A DNA stretch of 64,000 nt from Halodesulfovibrio aestuarii DSM 17919 = ATCC 29578 (GTDB lineage Bacteria > Desulfobacterota > Desulfovibrionia > Desulfovibrionales > Desulfovibrionaceae), in the NCBI RefSeq assembly GCF_000384815.1, contig NZ_ARQF01000018.1, forward strand, positions 124,001 through 188,000. The letters run 5' to 3'. The notes under the pieces are model-generated. The model made no database searches, had not been told where the DNA came from, and saw only the letters and a list, made by a program, of their open reading frames with translations. The translations under genes were made by a program, and so were the position numbers. Shown here piece after piece: positions 10,289-25,348 of this stretch (its first letter is position 1; every line of letters begins with the position of its first letter).

Positions 10289-11908
10289 CTATGAGGCCTT
10301 TTCTCCCATATCAATTGATGGGTTCCAGATAACGAAGGGCGTGTTGGCAGTACGTTTACATGCGTACATTGCATGGTCTGCTTTAGATAGGAGGTCGTCC
10401 GCGTTTGTGCCATGCTCGGGACAAATTGAAACCCCCATTGAAGCCGTCATTCTCGTCGTTGTTGAATCATGAAAGTCTATTTGACGGGCAATATGGTAGG
10501 CAATACGCATTAGTGTTGCCTGCAGGTCTTCTAAAGAATGAACTCCACTGAGCAACAGCAGGAATTCATCACCACCGGGACGTGCTACAAGGTCTACTTC
10601 ACGCAAAATGTGTTTAAGACGTTTTGCAACTTTTTTGAGAATTTCATCACCGAAATCGTGTCCACGAGAGTCGTTAATCTCCTTAAATTTGTTTAAGTCG
10701 ATAAAGACGAGTGAAAATGGAACCTGACTGCGGTTTTGCAACTCGATAGAATGGGCAAGCTGCATTTTGAACTGACGTCGGTTTGCGACTCCTGTCAGCC
10801 CATCGTGCATAGCCATATGTTGAATCCGTCGTTCTTGTTCTTTTTTATCTGTTATGTCTTCAAGAATGAGTACGTAGCGCGAGAGAACCTCGTGTTCCAA
10901 TACCTGTGAGACAGAGAGAGAAAGCCAGCGTTTTGTGTTGTCTTTTCGCGTTGCAAAAATATCGTCACGCCATTCTGGGGTTGCCAACAGTGTTTTCCAT
11001 GAAAAAGCGGCATGTTCTGATAACTCTTCCAGAAAAGGAACTTTGTTTCCGTGAAGTTCCTCTGCTGTATAGCCGGTAATTTGCGTAAATCGAGTATTTA
11101 CGTATTCAACGTTCCCATCAATAGAAAGGATAGCTGTTCCCGCCGGACTCTGTTCAAGGGCTTGGGAATACAGATGGATTTCGTGCTGAGCCGCATGTAG
11201 GTCAGAATAATCACGTACCGCAATAATGACAGTGCGTTTTCCGGAAATAGAAACGGAGCGCATGGAAACAAGTGCGAAGAAGTTTTTACCATATTTACAT
11301 TCAGAAATCGCCTGAAGATTGTTTACAGCCTTTCCAGTACGCAGGGCATTAGCGAACTCGTTGGCATCGTTACTATTTGCCCATGAGAAAACAGCACTGA
11401 CGGCATGATTGTAGACATCCTGCCATTTGTAATCCAACAGTTGTAAAAAGCTTTCGTTGACATCTGTCACAAGGCCGGATTCTAAATCTGCAAGAAGCAT
11501 GGGATCCGGGGTTGCATGAAATGTTGTTTCAAATTTGCTGGTTGAGTTTGGGAGAGACTGAACGTGTTTCAACCGCATGGTTTGCAACTCCAGACGTGAC
11601 GAGAGTGAGTTACGTTCAACATCCACCAACCGCAGATGCAACTGTGCGTTTGCTGATTGAGCTGCACTGAGTTCTTCACTCTGTTTGCGTATGATTTCTT
11701 GGAGTTTGCCTTTTTGACGAGTAGCGTGGGTACTGAAAAAGAAGATGGCACTTCCTAGAAACAGTGGAAGAAAAAAGTGGACAACAGAAGTTGCCGTGAA
11801 CCATTGGTTAACGGCAAAGTGATACCCTATCGCGCAGCATGTGGCGATGATGAAGAAGAGAGCCGGTCTACTTTTCCCTACAAAAGTAGACGGCGATAAT
11901 TTGCCCAT
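10289..11908 (-). CDS. Membrane PAS-PAS-GGDEF diguanylate cyclase
   Basis: 539-residue inner-membrane protein. Two hydrophobic segments (about 15-33 and 43-58) anchor it, a coiled-coil-like helix follows (65-118), then two PAS domains (about 125-240 and 245-360) and a GGDEF domain (365-530). The active-site motif GGDEF (445-449) is intact and the product-inhibition RxxD site (R436-D439) lies five residues before it, so it should make c-di-GMP under feedback control. There is no EAL domain. The signal read by the PAS domains is unknown. It is a single gene. Confidence 0.9.
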   Translation of the reverse strand: MGKLSPSTFVGKSRPALFFIIATCCAIGYHFAVNQWFTATSVVHFFLPLFLGSAIFFFSTHATRQKGKLQEIIRKQSEELSAAQSANAQLHLRLVDVERNSLSSRLELQTMRLKHVQSLPNSTSKFETTFHATPDPMLLADLESGLVTDVNESFLQLLDYKWQDVYNHAVSAVFSWANSNDANEFANALRTGKAVNNLQAISECKYGKNFFALVSMRSVSISGKRTVIIAVRDYSDLHAAQHEIHLYSQALEQSPAGTAILSIDGNVEYVNTRFTQITGYTAEELHGNKVPFLEELSEHAAFSWKTLLATPEWRDDIFATRKDNTKRWLSLSVSQVLEHEVLSRYVLILEDITDKKEQERRIQHMAMHDGLTGVANRRQFKMQLAHSIELQNRSQVPFSLVFIDLNKFKEINDSRGHDFGDEILKKVAKRLKHILREVDLVARPGGDEFLLLLSGVHSLEDLQATLMRIAYHIARQIDFHDSTTTRMTASMGVSICPEHGTNADDLLSKADHAMYACKRTANTPFVIWNPSIDMGEKAS

Positions 11909-21566: not shown

Positions 21567-22982
21567 CTATTCCTCCAGCCAATCTGTGAGCAGTGGCGGA
21601 GTGGACACATAGCGCATTGGTTTCCATTGGCATTGTGCTGTAAGTTCAATGCCGTGCTGAATAACGGATACAGGTCTGTCAGAAGAAACTACTATTGTAA
21701 TAATGTTTTTGTGCATGGCAGTGAAACGTACTGCGGAGTTAAATCGTGCTCCACGTGCCCTATTTTCTCCGGGTACTGTTCGTCCATCCAGTAGGCAAGC
21801 AAAACCAAGCAGTGTTGAAGACTTGCTGATGTGTAATGCTCCATCAACTTTTGCAAGTGAACAAGCGATATCAATGTTCTCAGGCAGGCTCAAATCAAGT
21901 GGGGATTGCAGTATCTGTCCTGCAATATTTCGTGGAATAGTATTGAGATCCAGTACTAGGGTGCAACCGTGTTTACGTTCGCGAGCCTGTACTACAACAC
22001 GTGTTGTATACTGAAAAATATTGTGCTGTTGTTCAGGTGTTAAGTTGGATTCGAGTAATGCTTCTTCCAGTTGAACAAGGTTTGGCTTGCGGTTTGTTGC
22101 AAGAAAGTTACCTGATGCGAAACTGCAAATGAGTTCGTCATCCAGTTTTACCATTCCGTGATTTCCTTCAAACATTACGAGGAGCGACCCTGGGGGAAGC
22201 TCGCCGGAAGCAATACCGGCAAGGGTACAACCGTCTGAAATAAGATAGCGCTCTGTATTTTCGACTGCCTGAAGTGTCTTCCTGCAATGACGGAGGTTTA
22301 CGAGGAGAGGTTGCTCCATTCGCGGAAATGATGCTTGAAAATGGACGTGCTGCAGGAAGCGTGGTTCAACAAAAGCAATTTTTCCACGCGGCCATGCGCC
22401 TTCTTCTCGTGTGTTTGAGATACCTAGAATTGCATTAAGTGTAGGATAGATACGTAAATATGTATCCATTCCTAACGATTCACTTCTTTTGTCTATGATG
22501 TAATCACGGATGGCGTGTTGAGCGTACGCTTGTAGAACATAACTGGAAGTATCGTTGCGCAGACCGGCATCCTGACTGAAGTCGGCACACAGTTGTGTGG
22601 CTGCGTATTCCAGCCAGCGAAGGATAGGGCCTTTGGAGCAGATGTCTGGATGTTCTTCTGTGAACCACATCTGGAATGGAAGTGTTATGCAGGAGCCCCC
22701 ATAGGATATCAGGCCAGAAAGTTGCGGATCCTCTACCGTATCGAATTCCTGCAGCAGATCACAGGAAACTGTTTCCTGAAAATTTGCAAAAAGATCTTTG
22801 AGACGCGGTTGGTGACCGTCGAGCAAATTTTGTGGATCAAGAATATAAAATGGTCCATCACATTCCAGACAGATGATCAGCGCCACGCGGCTGGGGCCGG
22901 CGAAGTGTGACAGACCATCACTCAACCCATCAAGAATATTGTAAATACTTCTTCTCCAATGTGAAGTGCCCATTGTCGTCAT
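21567..22982 (-). CDS. Putative diadenylate cyclase with unknown N-terminal domain
   Basis: 471 residues. The C-terminal part (about 325-455) resembles the DAC (DisA_N) domain that joins two ATP into c-di-AMP: KVDGALHIS with the DGA motif at 380-382, and RGARFNSAV (410-418) in the place of the RHR motif, followed by the VVSSDRPV strand. The canonical G-T-R-H-R is here G-A-R-F-N, as I recall also for a subset of stand-alone DAC proteins, so activity is likely but unproven. Residues 1-320 match no domain I can name and may be a sensor. There is no membrane segment or signal peptide. Confidence 0.65.
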   Translation of the reverse strand: MTTMGTSHWRRSIYNILDGLSDGLSHFAGPSRVALIICLECDGPFYILDPQNLLDGHQPRLKDLFANFQETVSCDLLQEFDTVEDPQLSGLISYGGSCITLPFQMWFTEEHPDICSKGPILRWLEYAATQLCADFSQDAGLRNDTSSYVLQAYAQHAIRDYIIDKRSESLGMDTYLRIYPTLNAILGISNTREEGAWPRGKIAFVEPRFLQHVHFQASFPRMEQPLLVNLRHCRKTLQAVENTERYLISDGCTLAGIASGELPPGSLLVMFEGNHGMVKLDDELICSFASGNFLATNRKPNLVQLEEALLESNLTPEQQHNIFQYTTRVVVQARERKHGCTLVLDLNTIPRNIAGQILQSPLDLSLPENIDIACSLAKVDGALHISKSSTLLGFACLLDGRTVPGENRARGARFNSAVRFTAMHKNIITIVVSSDRPVSVIQHGIELTAQCQWKPMRYVSTPPLLTDWLEE

Positions 22983-23374
22983 CTTGTTCTCCTCGCGGCA
23001 GAGGTTGGGGGAAGCCCAACACTATAAAAAACGAAATATTGCGCGTTAGCTTCTGATTAATTTGTAGCAACTTGCTATAATAGAAACATTACTGTTGATT
23101 GTCGAGGTATGTTCATAACTCAGTATAATACAAGAGAATCAGCCACAGGGTTGCTCTGTGTATAATATGTGGTAGCCTATCTGCATGTGTAAAAAGGAGC
23201 AAGAACAAGTGTCTATTTCAAGTGAGAACGTTCTTGTTTTACAAGTAAATATAATTGTAAGAGTAGTACAAAATTTCTCAACTATAGTATAAATATACTT
23301 GGGCGTAGCAATTGTATTTGTATATGTTCTTATATCTTAGGCTAAGAATGAACAGTATCTTCAGGAAAACAAGT
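22983..23374. promoter_or_regulatory. Divergent intergenic region
   Basis: About 390 bases between two divergent genes. Two TATAAT hexamers occur on the plus strand (23124-23129 and 23161-23166), neither with a good -35 at standard spacing. No gene is seen. The in-frame ATG and TTG codons from 23312 on belong to the next reading frame but lack a good ribosome site. Confidence 0.3.
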
Positions 23375-25348
23375 ATGGCTAAAAAACGGGTGAGGGGAAA
23401 AGTTCTCCCCTTTCATACGCAACAGAATGCTTTCAGCACCGTAGATGACTCGACAAGCGTAACATGTGACGAGTCTTCTGTTGATGCGCCAGACTTTTCT
23501 GTTGGGCAAAATATCCAGTCGGAATGTACAGGCAATGCAGACCAAGTGCAGCTTGAAGTTACGGTTGATCTTGATCCGTGGTCTGATGAGGCATGGCAGG
23601 CGTCGCTAAGCGGTGTTGAAAGTGACCTCGTAACGGAGCTATTTGGAACTGAAAAGTCTGTACCATCTTCTAATGAAGTAACTATTGAGGAAATGCAGTG
23701 GCTGCTGAAAAGTTCTTCTGTAGATGCTGATTGCAGTGATGGTTTTGGTGCGTCTTCCGACTCCGGTTATATTTTGGGGTTACCGACTAAACAGCTTGCA
23801 GATGCACAAAAAAACGGGACACTGACTCACTTGATTGAGTATCGCTACCGCAAGTCGATGCAATTTCCTGTACTTGATAAGGTTTTGAATAAATTTGCTG
23901 CTGAGGCTTCTAAACGCTTACGGAAGATTGCAGGGCAGTCTTGTCAGGTAAGAGCCATACGTTCTGCCCGTGCTCCATTTGATGTATGGCTGCGAATGGA
24001 TCATCCTGTTGCAACCACCTTTTCTATGTTCCCGCTGGATGGCGTGAGTGTGTTTGGAATGGAACGTGATGTTGCGGCAGGGCTAGCCCACGCGATTTTT
24101 TCAGGAGGGGAGCAGGAGCTCGTCCCGCAGTTGCTTCGTAGGCTGGCTGCGCTGAAAAAGAAGAATAAAAATATCTCACGCTGTCCTATAGCAAGTAGTG
24201 TGGTGCGGCATGTACTTCATCTCTTATTGCTTGATATGGAGTGGGCGTTGGCTCCGTATTATGAAGTCGAGTCTATGCATAGCAAAGCGGATGAGCCAGC
24301 TTTATACAGTAAACATTTCTGGCTGGATGAACCCTGTATTGTATGTGAACTGTCCGTAAGTATAGACAGCACTGAAGGCAGTGAAGGCTCTGGTATTAGC
24401 GGAACAATGATGATGGTTTTTCCTGAGAAAATGTTGGAAGAGCTTCTTCCGATTCTTACAGGAAAACAGTCGGTTCTTGTGCCGGAGTTTACAGAAATTG
24501 ATGCTTCAGCCCAAGAGCACCTTTTGCATTTAGACAATGACGCGTTACGATCTGAGTTGGAGACTCAGCATCCGTTGTCTGCGGCAGTTATTTTGTCTCA
24601 ATTGTCTGAAGACAGAAGGCTTACGATTGTTGAGAAGATGAGCAAAAACAAGCAGAAAGCAATAGAAAGGCGAGCAGGACATAGAGCGGGAATTGAAAAT
24701 GTTTTGTCTGAACAACAGCAGTTTGTTGCTTCGGTACTAGCGCTTGGTGAAAACCATGCCGCACAGGTGCTCAGCAGCTTTTCTCCAGAAGCCGCAGCCG
24801 GCTTTTTACGGGAGGCAGGCAAATTGCCGTCGTTGTATTCGGAGCAAGTAAACGCGCTGTTGAAAAGTCGGAACAGTTCGATTGTCAGTGCCGGTGCACT
24901 GGTTGTGGATAGTGCGCTTGTCCGAAGGTTGATGATACGGGCAATTGCAGCAAAAGATATGGCGCAGGTTGTAGCTTTATGCCGCAACGACAGAGTGCAT
25001 ATGCCGTTTGCATTAATTTTGTCAGTGCCTGTGGAAGACCTTGTTGCAGTGCTCCGTAACGAACCTGTATCAATCCAGTCTGCAGTTATTTGTCAACTTC
25101 TGGGAACAGACAGAGACTATACCGCAAAAGTATTTGAAGTCTTTTCTCCGGAAGAACGACAGGAGATTGCGAAGCAGTTGGCGTATGAAAAACGTATTGA
25201 ACCCGAGTTTGTGACACTTTTAGAGAATTATTTTATTGCACAGCTTTCAAAACGTAGTGACAACGAGGCATTAAGTATTCCGGAGCAGGAGCAGTGGGCA
25301 GTTTCCGGTACTGTTGAATGGCTGTTAGAAAATTTTTCTCTTGAGTAG
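23375..25348 (+). CDS. FliM-like/FliG-like chimeric protein
   Basis: 657 residues from ATG 23375 (AGGA upstream; alternative starts at 23348 and 23312). Residues 1-160 are acidic, low-complexity and without signal peptide. Residues about 165-365 follow the FliM middle domain: a long helix LDKVLNKFAAEASKRLRKI, FSMFPLDGVSVFG, an AIFSGG turn (FFGG in FliM), a second long helix and SGTMMMVFPEKMLEELLPIL. Two FliG-middle-like segments follow: ALRSELETQHPLSAAVILSQL (about 390-410) and LVAVLRNEPVSIQSAVICQL with KRIEPEFVTLLENYF (about 556-620). No other flagellar gene lies nearby. The identification is by pattern, not by search. Confidence 0.55.
   Translation: MAKKRVRGKVLPFHTQQNAFSTVDDSTSVTCDESSVDAPDFSVGQNIQSECTGNADQVQLEVTVDLDPWSDEAWQASLSGVESDLVTELFGTEKSVPSSNEVTIEEMQWLLKSSSVDADCSDGFGASSDSGYILGLPTKQLADAQKNGTLTHLIEYRYRKSMQFPVLDKVLNKFAAEASKRLRKIAGQSCQVRAIRSARAPFDVWLRMDHPVATTFSMFPLDGVSVFGMERDVAAGLAHAIFSGGEQELVPQLLRRLAALKKKNKNISRCPIASSVVRHVLHLLLLDMEWALAPYYEVESMHSKADEPALYSKHFWLDEPCIVCELSVSIDSTEGSEGSGISGTMMMVFPEKMLEELLPILTGKQSVLVPEFTEIDASAQEHLLHLDNDALRSELETQHPLSAAVILSQLSEDRRLTIVEKMSKNKQKAIERRAGHRAGIENVLSEQQQFVASVLALGENHAAQVLSSFSPEAAAGFLREAGKLPSLYSEQVNALLKSRNSSIVSAGALVVDSALVRRLMIRAIAAKDMAQVVALCRNDRVHMPFALILSVPVEDLVAVLRNEPVSIQSAVICQLLGTDRDYTAKVFEVFSPEERQEIAKQLAYEKRIEPEFVTLLENYFIAQLSKRSDNEALSIPEQEQWAVSGTVEWLLENFSLE

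Follow-up and report, generated by a model that had tools for sequence, protein, structure and literature searches.

A chimeric FliM-FliG flagellar switch paralogue in Halodesulfovibrio and one other genus of its family

The central contact of the flagellar switch lies between FliM and FliG, two proteins that are separate in the motors described in the available sections of two reports (PMC7355467, PMC11528121). According to the same sections, the N-terminal domain of FliG (FliG_N) joins the tails of FliF and packs on the neighbouring FliG in the inner ring, the middle domain (FliG_M) binds the middle domain of FliM (FliM_M), and the C-terminal domain (FliG_C) meets the stators (PMC11528121, PMC7355467). 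The GGXG motif of FliM and the EHPQR motif of FliG face each other in this FliM-FliG contact, as described in the part available of PMC7355467. In Campylobacter jejuni, gene duplication yielded components beyond the standard set, and the duplicated parts of the C-ring acquired roles in assembly and number control, as far as the available text of PMC6946799 describes them. In Salmonella, FliF-FliG fusions place rotor proteins in a single chain, as does the gene reported here; there, however, FliF is joined to FliG, whereas here FliM parts are joined to FliG parts and the ordinary genes remain (PMC6079021, PMC7355467, both as available in part). An open-library search, limited by its wording and by the entries returned, revealed no natural FliM-FliG fusion in the literature. 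The FliM and FliG domains of the expanded C-ring of C. jejuni are not known to be joined. The present protein shares with that system the duplication and the additional component, but it is one chain, encoded apart from recognised flagellar genes.

The window, i.e., the whole 64,000-nucleotide stretch of Halodesulfovibrio aestuarii DNA analysed, harbours an ORF at 23375-25348 (+) with an ATG at 23375, a stop codon ending at 25348 and a product of 657 amino acids. A Shine-Dalgarno-like AGGA (23363..23366, +) is located 8 bases 5' of the ATG, as read from the sequence and from an upstream alignment of six genomes, in which the ATG at 23375 and a CAGG are kept in 6/6 and AGGA in 5/6 (AGGG in one). 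A TTG at 23312, upstream of this ATG, is also open in frame. An assembly artefact or chance ORF was ruled out by the presence of the gene at the same locus in all ten genomes of the genus. Divergent from it lies a gene (21567-22982, -) for a DACND-DACNH-DAC protein of 471 amino acids, a DisA-type nucleotide-binding sensor, referred to below as the DAC gene. The gap between the two (22983-23374) contains no match to sigma-54 or sigma-28 promoter patterns, these being textbook patterns that may not suit the genus. Unusually conserved stretches occur within the same gap in the six aligned genomes, e.g., near TGCATGTTGGAAAAGGGGCAAGG and GTATATATAATCG.

Profile comparisons show the predicted product to be a chimeric flagellar switch paralogue with the domain order FliM_M - FliG_M - FliG_N - FliG_M. 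A variable N-terminal tail (residues 1-157; 23375..23845, +), which opens with a basic segment and a K-V-L-like motif common to the orthologues, precedes the FliM_M-like part (residues 158-375; 23846..24499, +). This is followed by a first copy of FliG_M (residues 376-442; 24500..24700, +), a FliG_N-like part (residues ~443-540; 24701..24994, +), a second copy of FliG_M (residues ~541-630; 24995..25264, +) placed behind FliG_N as in normal FliG, and a C-terminal tail (residues 631-657; 25265..25345, +) in the place taken by FliG_C in FliG. The underlying hhalign tests compared 14 fusion orthologues with either 11 FliM or 11 FliG of the family; both halves matched their own families, and the swapped controls were negative (E 0.49 and 0.24), which bears out the fused switch module proposed in the initial annotation. 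Identity to the window protein falls to 24% among these 14 sequences, and some residues are invariant across all of them. At a threshold of 0.1, Pfam detected FliG_M and FliG_N in 14/14, MgtE_N in 10/14, FliM in 4/14 and FliG_C in 3/14 of the orthologues; NCBIfam models matched as well, fliG in 13/14 and fliM in 8/14. A phmmer search of the PDB with the single fusion sequence yielded nothing significant (best E 0.69, FliG at 1). Since the AlphaFold models, built from a three-sequence input, are poor (mean pLDDT 45.7 and 49.6), the fold searches given below are hints at most.

The FliM-like half aligned with family FliM at E 1.6e-8 over columns 49-229, and the NCBIfam model fliM_switch matched the window protein at 4.4e-5 over residues 163-379, with a score (22.8 bits) far below the equivalog cut-off of 219.6. 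Its profile found two PDB sequences at <=0.1, both of them FliM (4.6e-4 and 0.016), so that the FliM-like middle part recognised earlier from the sequence stands; with the weak model of this half, Foldseek placed FliM/FliY on top (best E 0.027, none at E <=0.001). Like FliM (TIGR01397 / PF02154), the fusion possesses the middle domain at full length and keeps the PLxG and E-x-W-x-x-x-P-like places. Unlike FliM, it has no intact GGXG loop (0/14 orthologues at the aligned place), no SpoA and no detectable CheY-binding peptide. The FliN-binding SpoA domain gave no Pfam match at E 10 in the window protein, nor at 0.1 in the 14 members, and the end of the FliM match is the start of FliG_M, with no SpoA between. 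As to the peptide (EIDALL type), the loss suspected initially agrees with its best-scoring stretch being no better than shuffles in 13/14 orthologues; the score of L030 corresponded to 27 of 2000 shuffles before correction for 14 tests. The stretch EEMQWLL (residues 105-111) was considered as a retained CheY-binding peptide and ruled out, being at chance level.

The FliG-like half aligned with family FliG at E 8.5e-17 over columns 4-183, collinear with FliG_N-FliG_M, i.e., over ~180 residues in the order known from FliG (TIGR00207 / PF14842-PF14841-PF01706). In the window protein, Pfam recognised FliG_M (1.6e-12) and FliG_N (7.6e-9, above its cut-off), and NCBIfam fliG matched at 3.2e-4 over residues 444-624, far below its equivalog cut-off. 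Residues 443-657 matched FliG_N (5.7e-12) and then FliG_M (2.6e-7) in hhalign. Two FliG-type repeats had been noted before; both hold as copies of FliG_M, while the FliG_N between them had been overlooked. Differences from FliG are the extra FliG_M before FliG_N and the missing FliG_C: the torque domain was not found behind FliG_M, residues 443-657 reaching E 0.4 against it (hhalign). A Pfam match to FliG_C over 381-460 (5.5e-5; 23.8 bits, just above the cut-off of 23.3) speaks for a FliG_C origin of the first copy; this identity was rejected by profile comparison, in which residues 376-442 gave 9.8e-7 for FliG_M vs 0.013 for FliG_C and 0.024 for FliG_N. A further difference concerns EHPQ, the remains of which are split between the two FliG_M copies. 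Copy 1 retains the His-Pro of EHPQR (residues 399-400; 24569-24574, +) in 14/14 sequences and HPQ in 4/14; in copy 2, the E alone is invariant (14/14).

An armadillo-like or MgtE_N repeat protein that is unrelated to FliG and FliM and mimics them is extremely improbable. MgtE_N, which resembles FliG, matched weakly (10/14 orthologues at 0.1), and Foldseek with the poor long model ranked TRRAP first, FliG third and many unrelated helical repeats besides, giving no clear answer. Against such mimicry stand the collinear FliG_N-FliG_M alignment, the negative swapped controls and the PDB sequences, which were FliG in 12/12 matches at <=0.01 for the FliG-like profile (best 2.6e-7; one a FliF-FliG construct) and FliM in 2/2 for the other. 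A better match to an unrelated helical-repeat family, which the initial annotation had envisaged, did not emerge, MgtE_N failing to reach its cut-off for the window protein (9.6e-5).

The spread of the fusion, suggested earlier as a check, takes in the whole genus, 10/10 genomes (besides the window's own, five with 65-77% identity and four with 30-33%), as well as six genomes belonging to a second genus of the same family (g50). A class search with the FliM_M+FliG_M part returned precisely these, i.e., 16/297 genomes and 2/53 genera. In the family, the full profile matched 42/149 genomes at 1e-3: nine of this genus, six of g50 and 27 others, the latter with FliG-sized genes covering the C-terminal half of the profile. 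Phylum-wide, 62/297 genomes matched the FliM_M+FliG_M profile at 1e-5, and all matches other than the window's gene covered one half each, never both. The frames hit by the first half had mostly 326-344 amino acids and those hit by the second mostly 330-396; such FliM- and FliG-sized frames covering one half indicate separate FliM-like and FliG-like genes. Further fused genes beyond this genus and g50 were not found in the genomes sampled. The g50 genes contain long variable low-complexity inserts; one is truncated where its contig ends (G162), and another is spread over two overlapping frames (G129; L074:8230-10928, -), which is possibly a sequencing error.

The fusion lies between genes for an EVE protein and ygiQ wherever the sequence extends far enough, i.e., at 15/15 loci (the window, nine others of the genus and five of g50); at the sixth g50 locus, on a 3.4 kb contig, EVE alone was found. 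The DAC gene is located between EVE and the fusion at 10/10 loci of the genus and 0/6 of g50 (one of these being the 3.4 kb contig), and among seven window genes sought, EVE and ygiQ are the sole neighbours found in both genera. Two genomes carry related arrangements with no fusion between: EVE adjoins ygiQ in G020 (L107:4271-7058, -), and ygiQ adjoins a DAC-gene relative in G016 (L094:4887-8397, +). In other genera, ygiQ scored above its cut-off in 15/30 genomes searched, and no diverged fusion was detected beside it by profile (best E 0.32; 15 loci, some shortened by contig ends). The earlier statement that flagellar genes are lacking nearby holds for the 29 neighbouring ORFs scanned (~7-44 kb of the window), among which none was recognised. 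A PAS-GGDEF diguanylate cyclase-like protein is encoded at 10289-11908 (-) of the window.

Ordinary fliG and fliM, for which a check had been proposed, are both present elsewhere in the genome. Across the 16 fusion-bearing genomes, one ordinary FliM was identified in 16/16, one ordinary FliG in 15/16 and one FliF in 15/16; G003 (86% complete) is the sole one without ordinary FliG and FliF. G034 lacks FliM and FliG and also the fusion. With ordinary fliM, fliG and fliF located elsewhere, the fusion comes on top of the standard set rather than in place of it, and with one of each in 15/16 genomes, no second rotor of these parts is seen to which it could belong. In G017 (L203, L207), a second, partial match to the FliF C-domain lies ~7 kb from fliF.

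The shared EVE-ygiQ locus and the shared basic, K-V-L-like start of the protein point to one origin of the fusion at this site in both genera. A FliM+FliG tree places the two genera together, but with a support of only 25 (G072 without FliM, G003 without FliG). Bit scores of the FliG_N-FliG_M part were compared over 45 distinct FliG (frames containing HPQ and <460 amino acids) and amounted to 58-90 for the 39 FliG from the same order vs 25-52 for six from other parts of the phylum, which points to an origin of this part within the order. For the FliM half, 26 distinct FliM gave 22-31.5 bits against 22 of the own order vs 33-41 against four from elsewhere, the four outside-order FliM having been picked by the phylum search itself. 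A mobile or viral origin was rejected, there being no match in phages at 0.01 nor in plasmids at 0.001.

The fusion has diverged about ten times faster than true FliM and FliG: its pN against five relatives is 0.14-0.24, compared with 0.011-0.019 for FliM (four relatives), 0.006-0.019 for FliG (five), 0.06-0.09 for YgiQ (five) and 0.05-0.08 for DAC (four). It is fast but not alone, since the nearby DUF3124 gene shows 0.12-0.19 (five relatives). Judged from dN/dS of 0.084 and 0.071 in 2/5 pairs, the other pairs being saturated in pS, the gene is under purifying selection. Resolved by segment, pN is highest in the N-terminal tail (0.24-0.35) and amounts to 0.09-0.24 in FliM_M, 0.11-0.23 in FliG_M copy 1, 0.045-0.057 in FliG_N, 0.17-0.30 in FliG_M copy 2 and 0.12-0.27 in the C-terminal tail; by this measure, FliG_N is by far the most constrained part of the fusion, yet faster-changing than true FliG. 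A dispensable, decaying paralogue without present function would agree with the fast divergence, the low-complexity inserts in g50 and the G129 gene split over two frames, itself possibly a sequencing error. The low dN/dS where measurable, a pN of about 0.05 in FliG_N, the presence in 10/10 genomes of the genus and the residues invariant over 14 sequences make decay quite improbable, and speed alone is no sign of it because the DUF3124 gene is about as fast.

Since FliG_N, FliG_M and FliM_M are kept and the stator, FliN and CheY parts are missing, we tentatively favour, at somewhat short of even confidence, a passive rotor paralogue that would sit on the FliF/FliG_N inner ring and modulate the C-ring; docking on the rotor and modulation of the motor are both inferred. 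The conserved FliG_N would attach either to the tails of FliF or next to the FliG_N of the inner ring, and the FliM_M and FliG_M modules, whose pairing makes up the core of the FliM-FliG contact, could pack into, or cap, the C-ring. Lacking FliG_C behind FliG_M, SpoA and the FliM N-peptide, the protein should neither work stators nor hold FliN, and CheY-P should not catch it in the usual way. The expected effect would be that C-ring assembly or motor output is lowered, limited or gated (decoy, brake or number control). Such a role is favoured by the homology of both halves to switch proteins, the single ordinary partner set in 15/16 genomes, the constraint on the putative docking domain (pN 0.045-0.057 vs 0.09-0.35 in the other five segments), the FliM-meeting His-Pro kept in copy 1 (14/14) and the gene's presence throughout the genus (10/10); the dN/dS values (0.084, 0.071) and the duplicated C-ring parts of C. 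jejuni as a parallel add to these.

Other observations speak against a place in the rotor, namely the 29 neighbours with no flagellar gene among them, the lack of a recognisable flagellar promoter, GGXG intact in 0/14, EHPQ incomplete in both FliG_M copies and the roughly tenfold faster divergence, unlike a core rotor part. Several of these speak for a repurposed scaffold, in which the switch domains serve a non-flagellar complex (e.g., polarity or signalling) off the motor; no flagellar neighbours are recognised at the conserved, non-flagellar EVE-ygiQ locus, the GGXG loop is lost, and divergence exceeds that of FliM and FliG. Strong constraint on FliG_N argues against the scaffold, and EVE and ygiQ, the neighbours in both genera, suggest no other machine; we regard it as possible but doubtful. 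An active, non-inhibitory subunit that co-assembles into the C-ring and widens or reshapes the rotor (e.g., as a structural accessory forming a further inner ring) appears unlikely. FliM_M, FliG_M and FliG_N in a single chain would suit it, as would the expanded set of C-ring components in C. jejuni (PMC6946799, as available in part); a structural part of every motor, however, would be expected to approach FliG in conservation, which the fusion does not, and the searches did not turn it up in other family genera that have FliM and FliG.

The protein could conceivably be a natural, dedicated dummy rotor subunit, a more speculative proposal that we hold with considerable reserve: it would supply FliF docking and a FliM_M/FliG_M core with no signal, FliN or stator contacts, and thereby set the number of working switch units in a motor or decide on the completion of a new C-ring. 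If true, this would be a flagellar motor governor built by fusing the motor's own parts. In this conserved natural chimera, the parts that build rings are retained and those for torque, FliN and CheY are gone. It offers a ready tool for probing the role of each part and for asking whether motors control the make-up of their own rings. Some sulfate-reducing bacteria carry it besides their normal switch proteins, and there it may tune or limit the motor.
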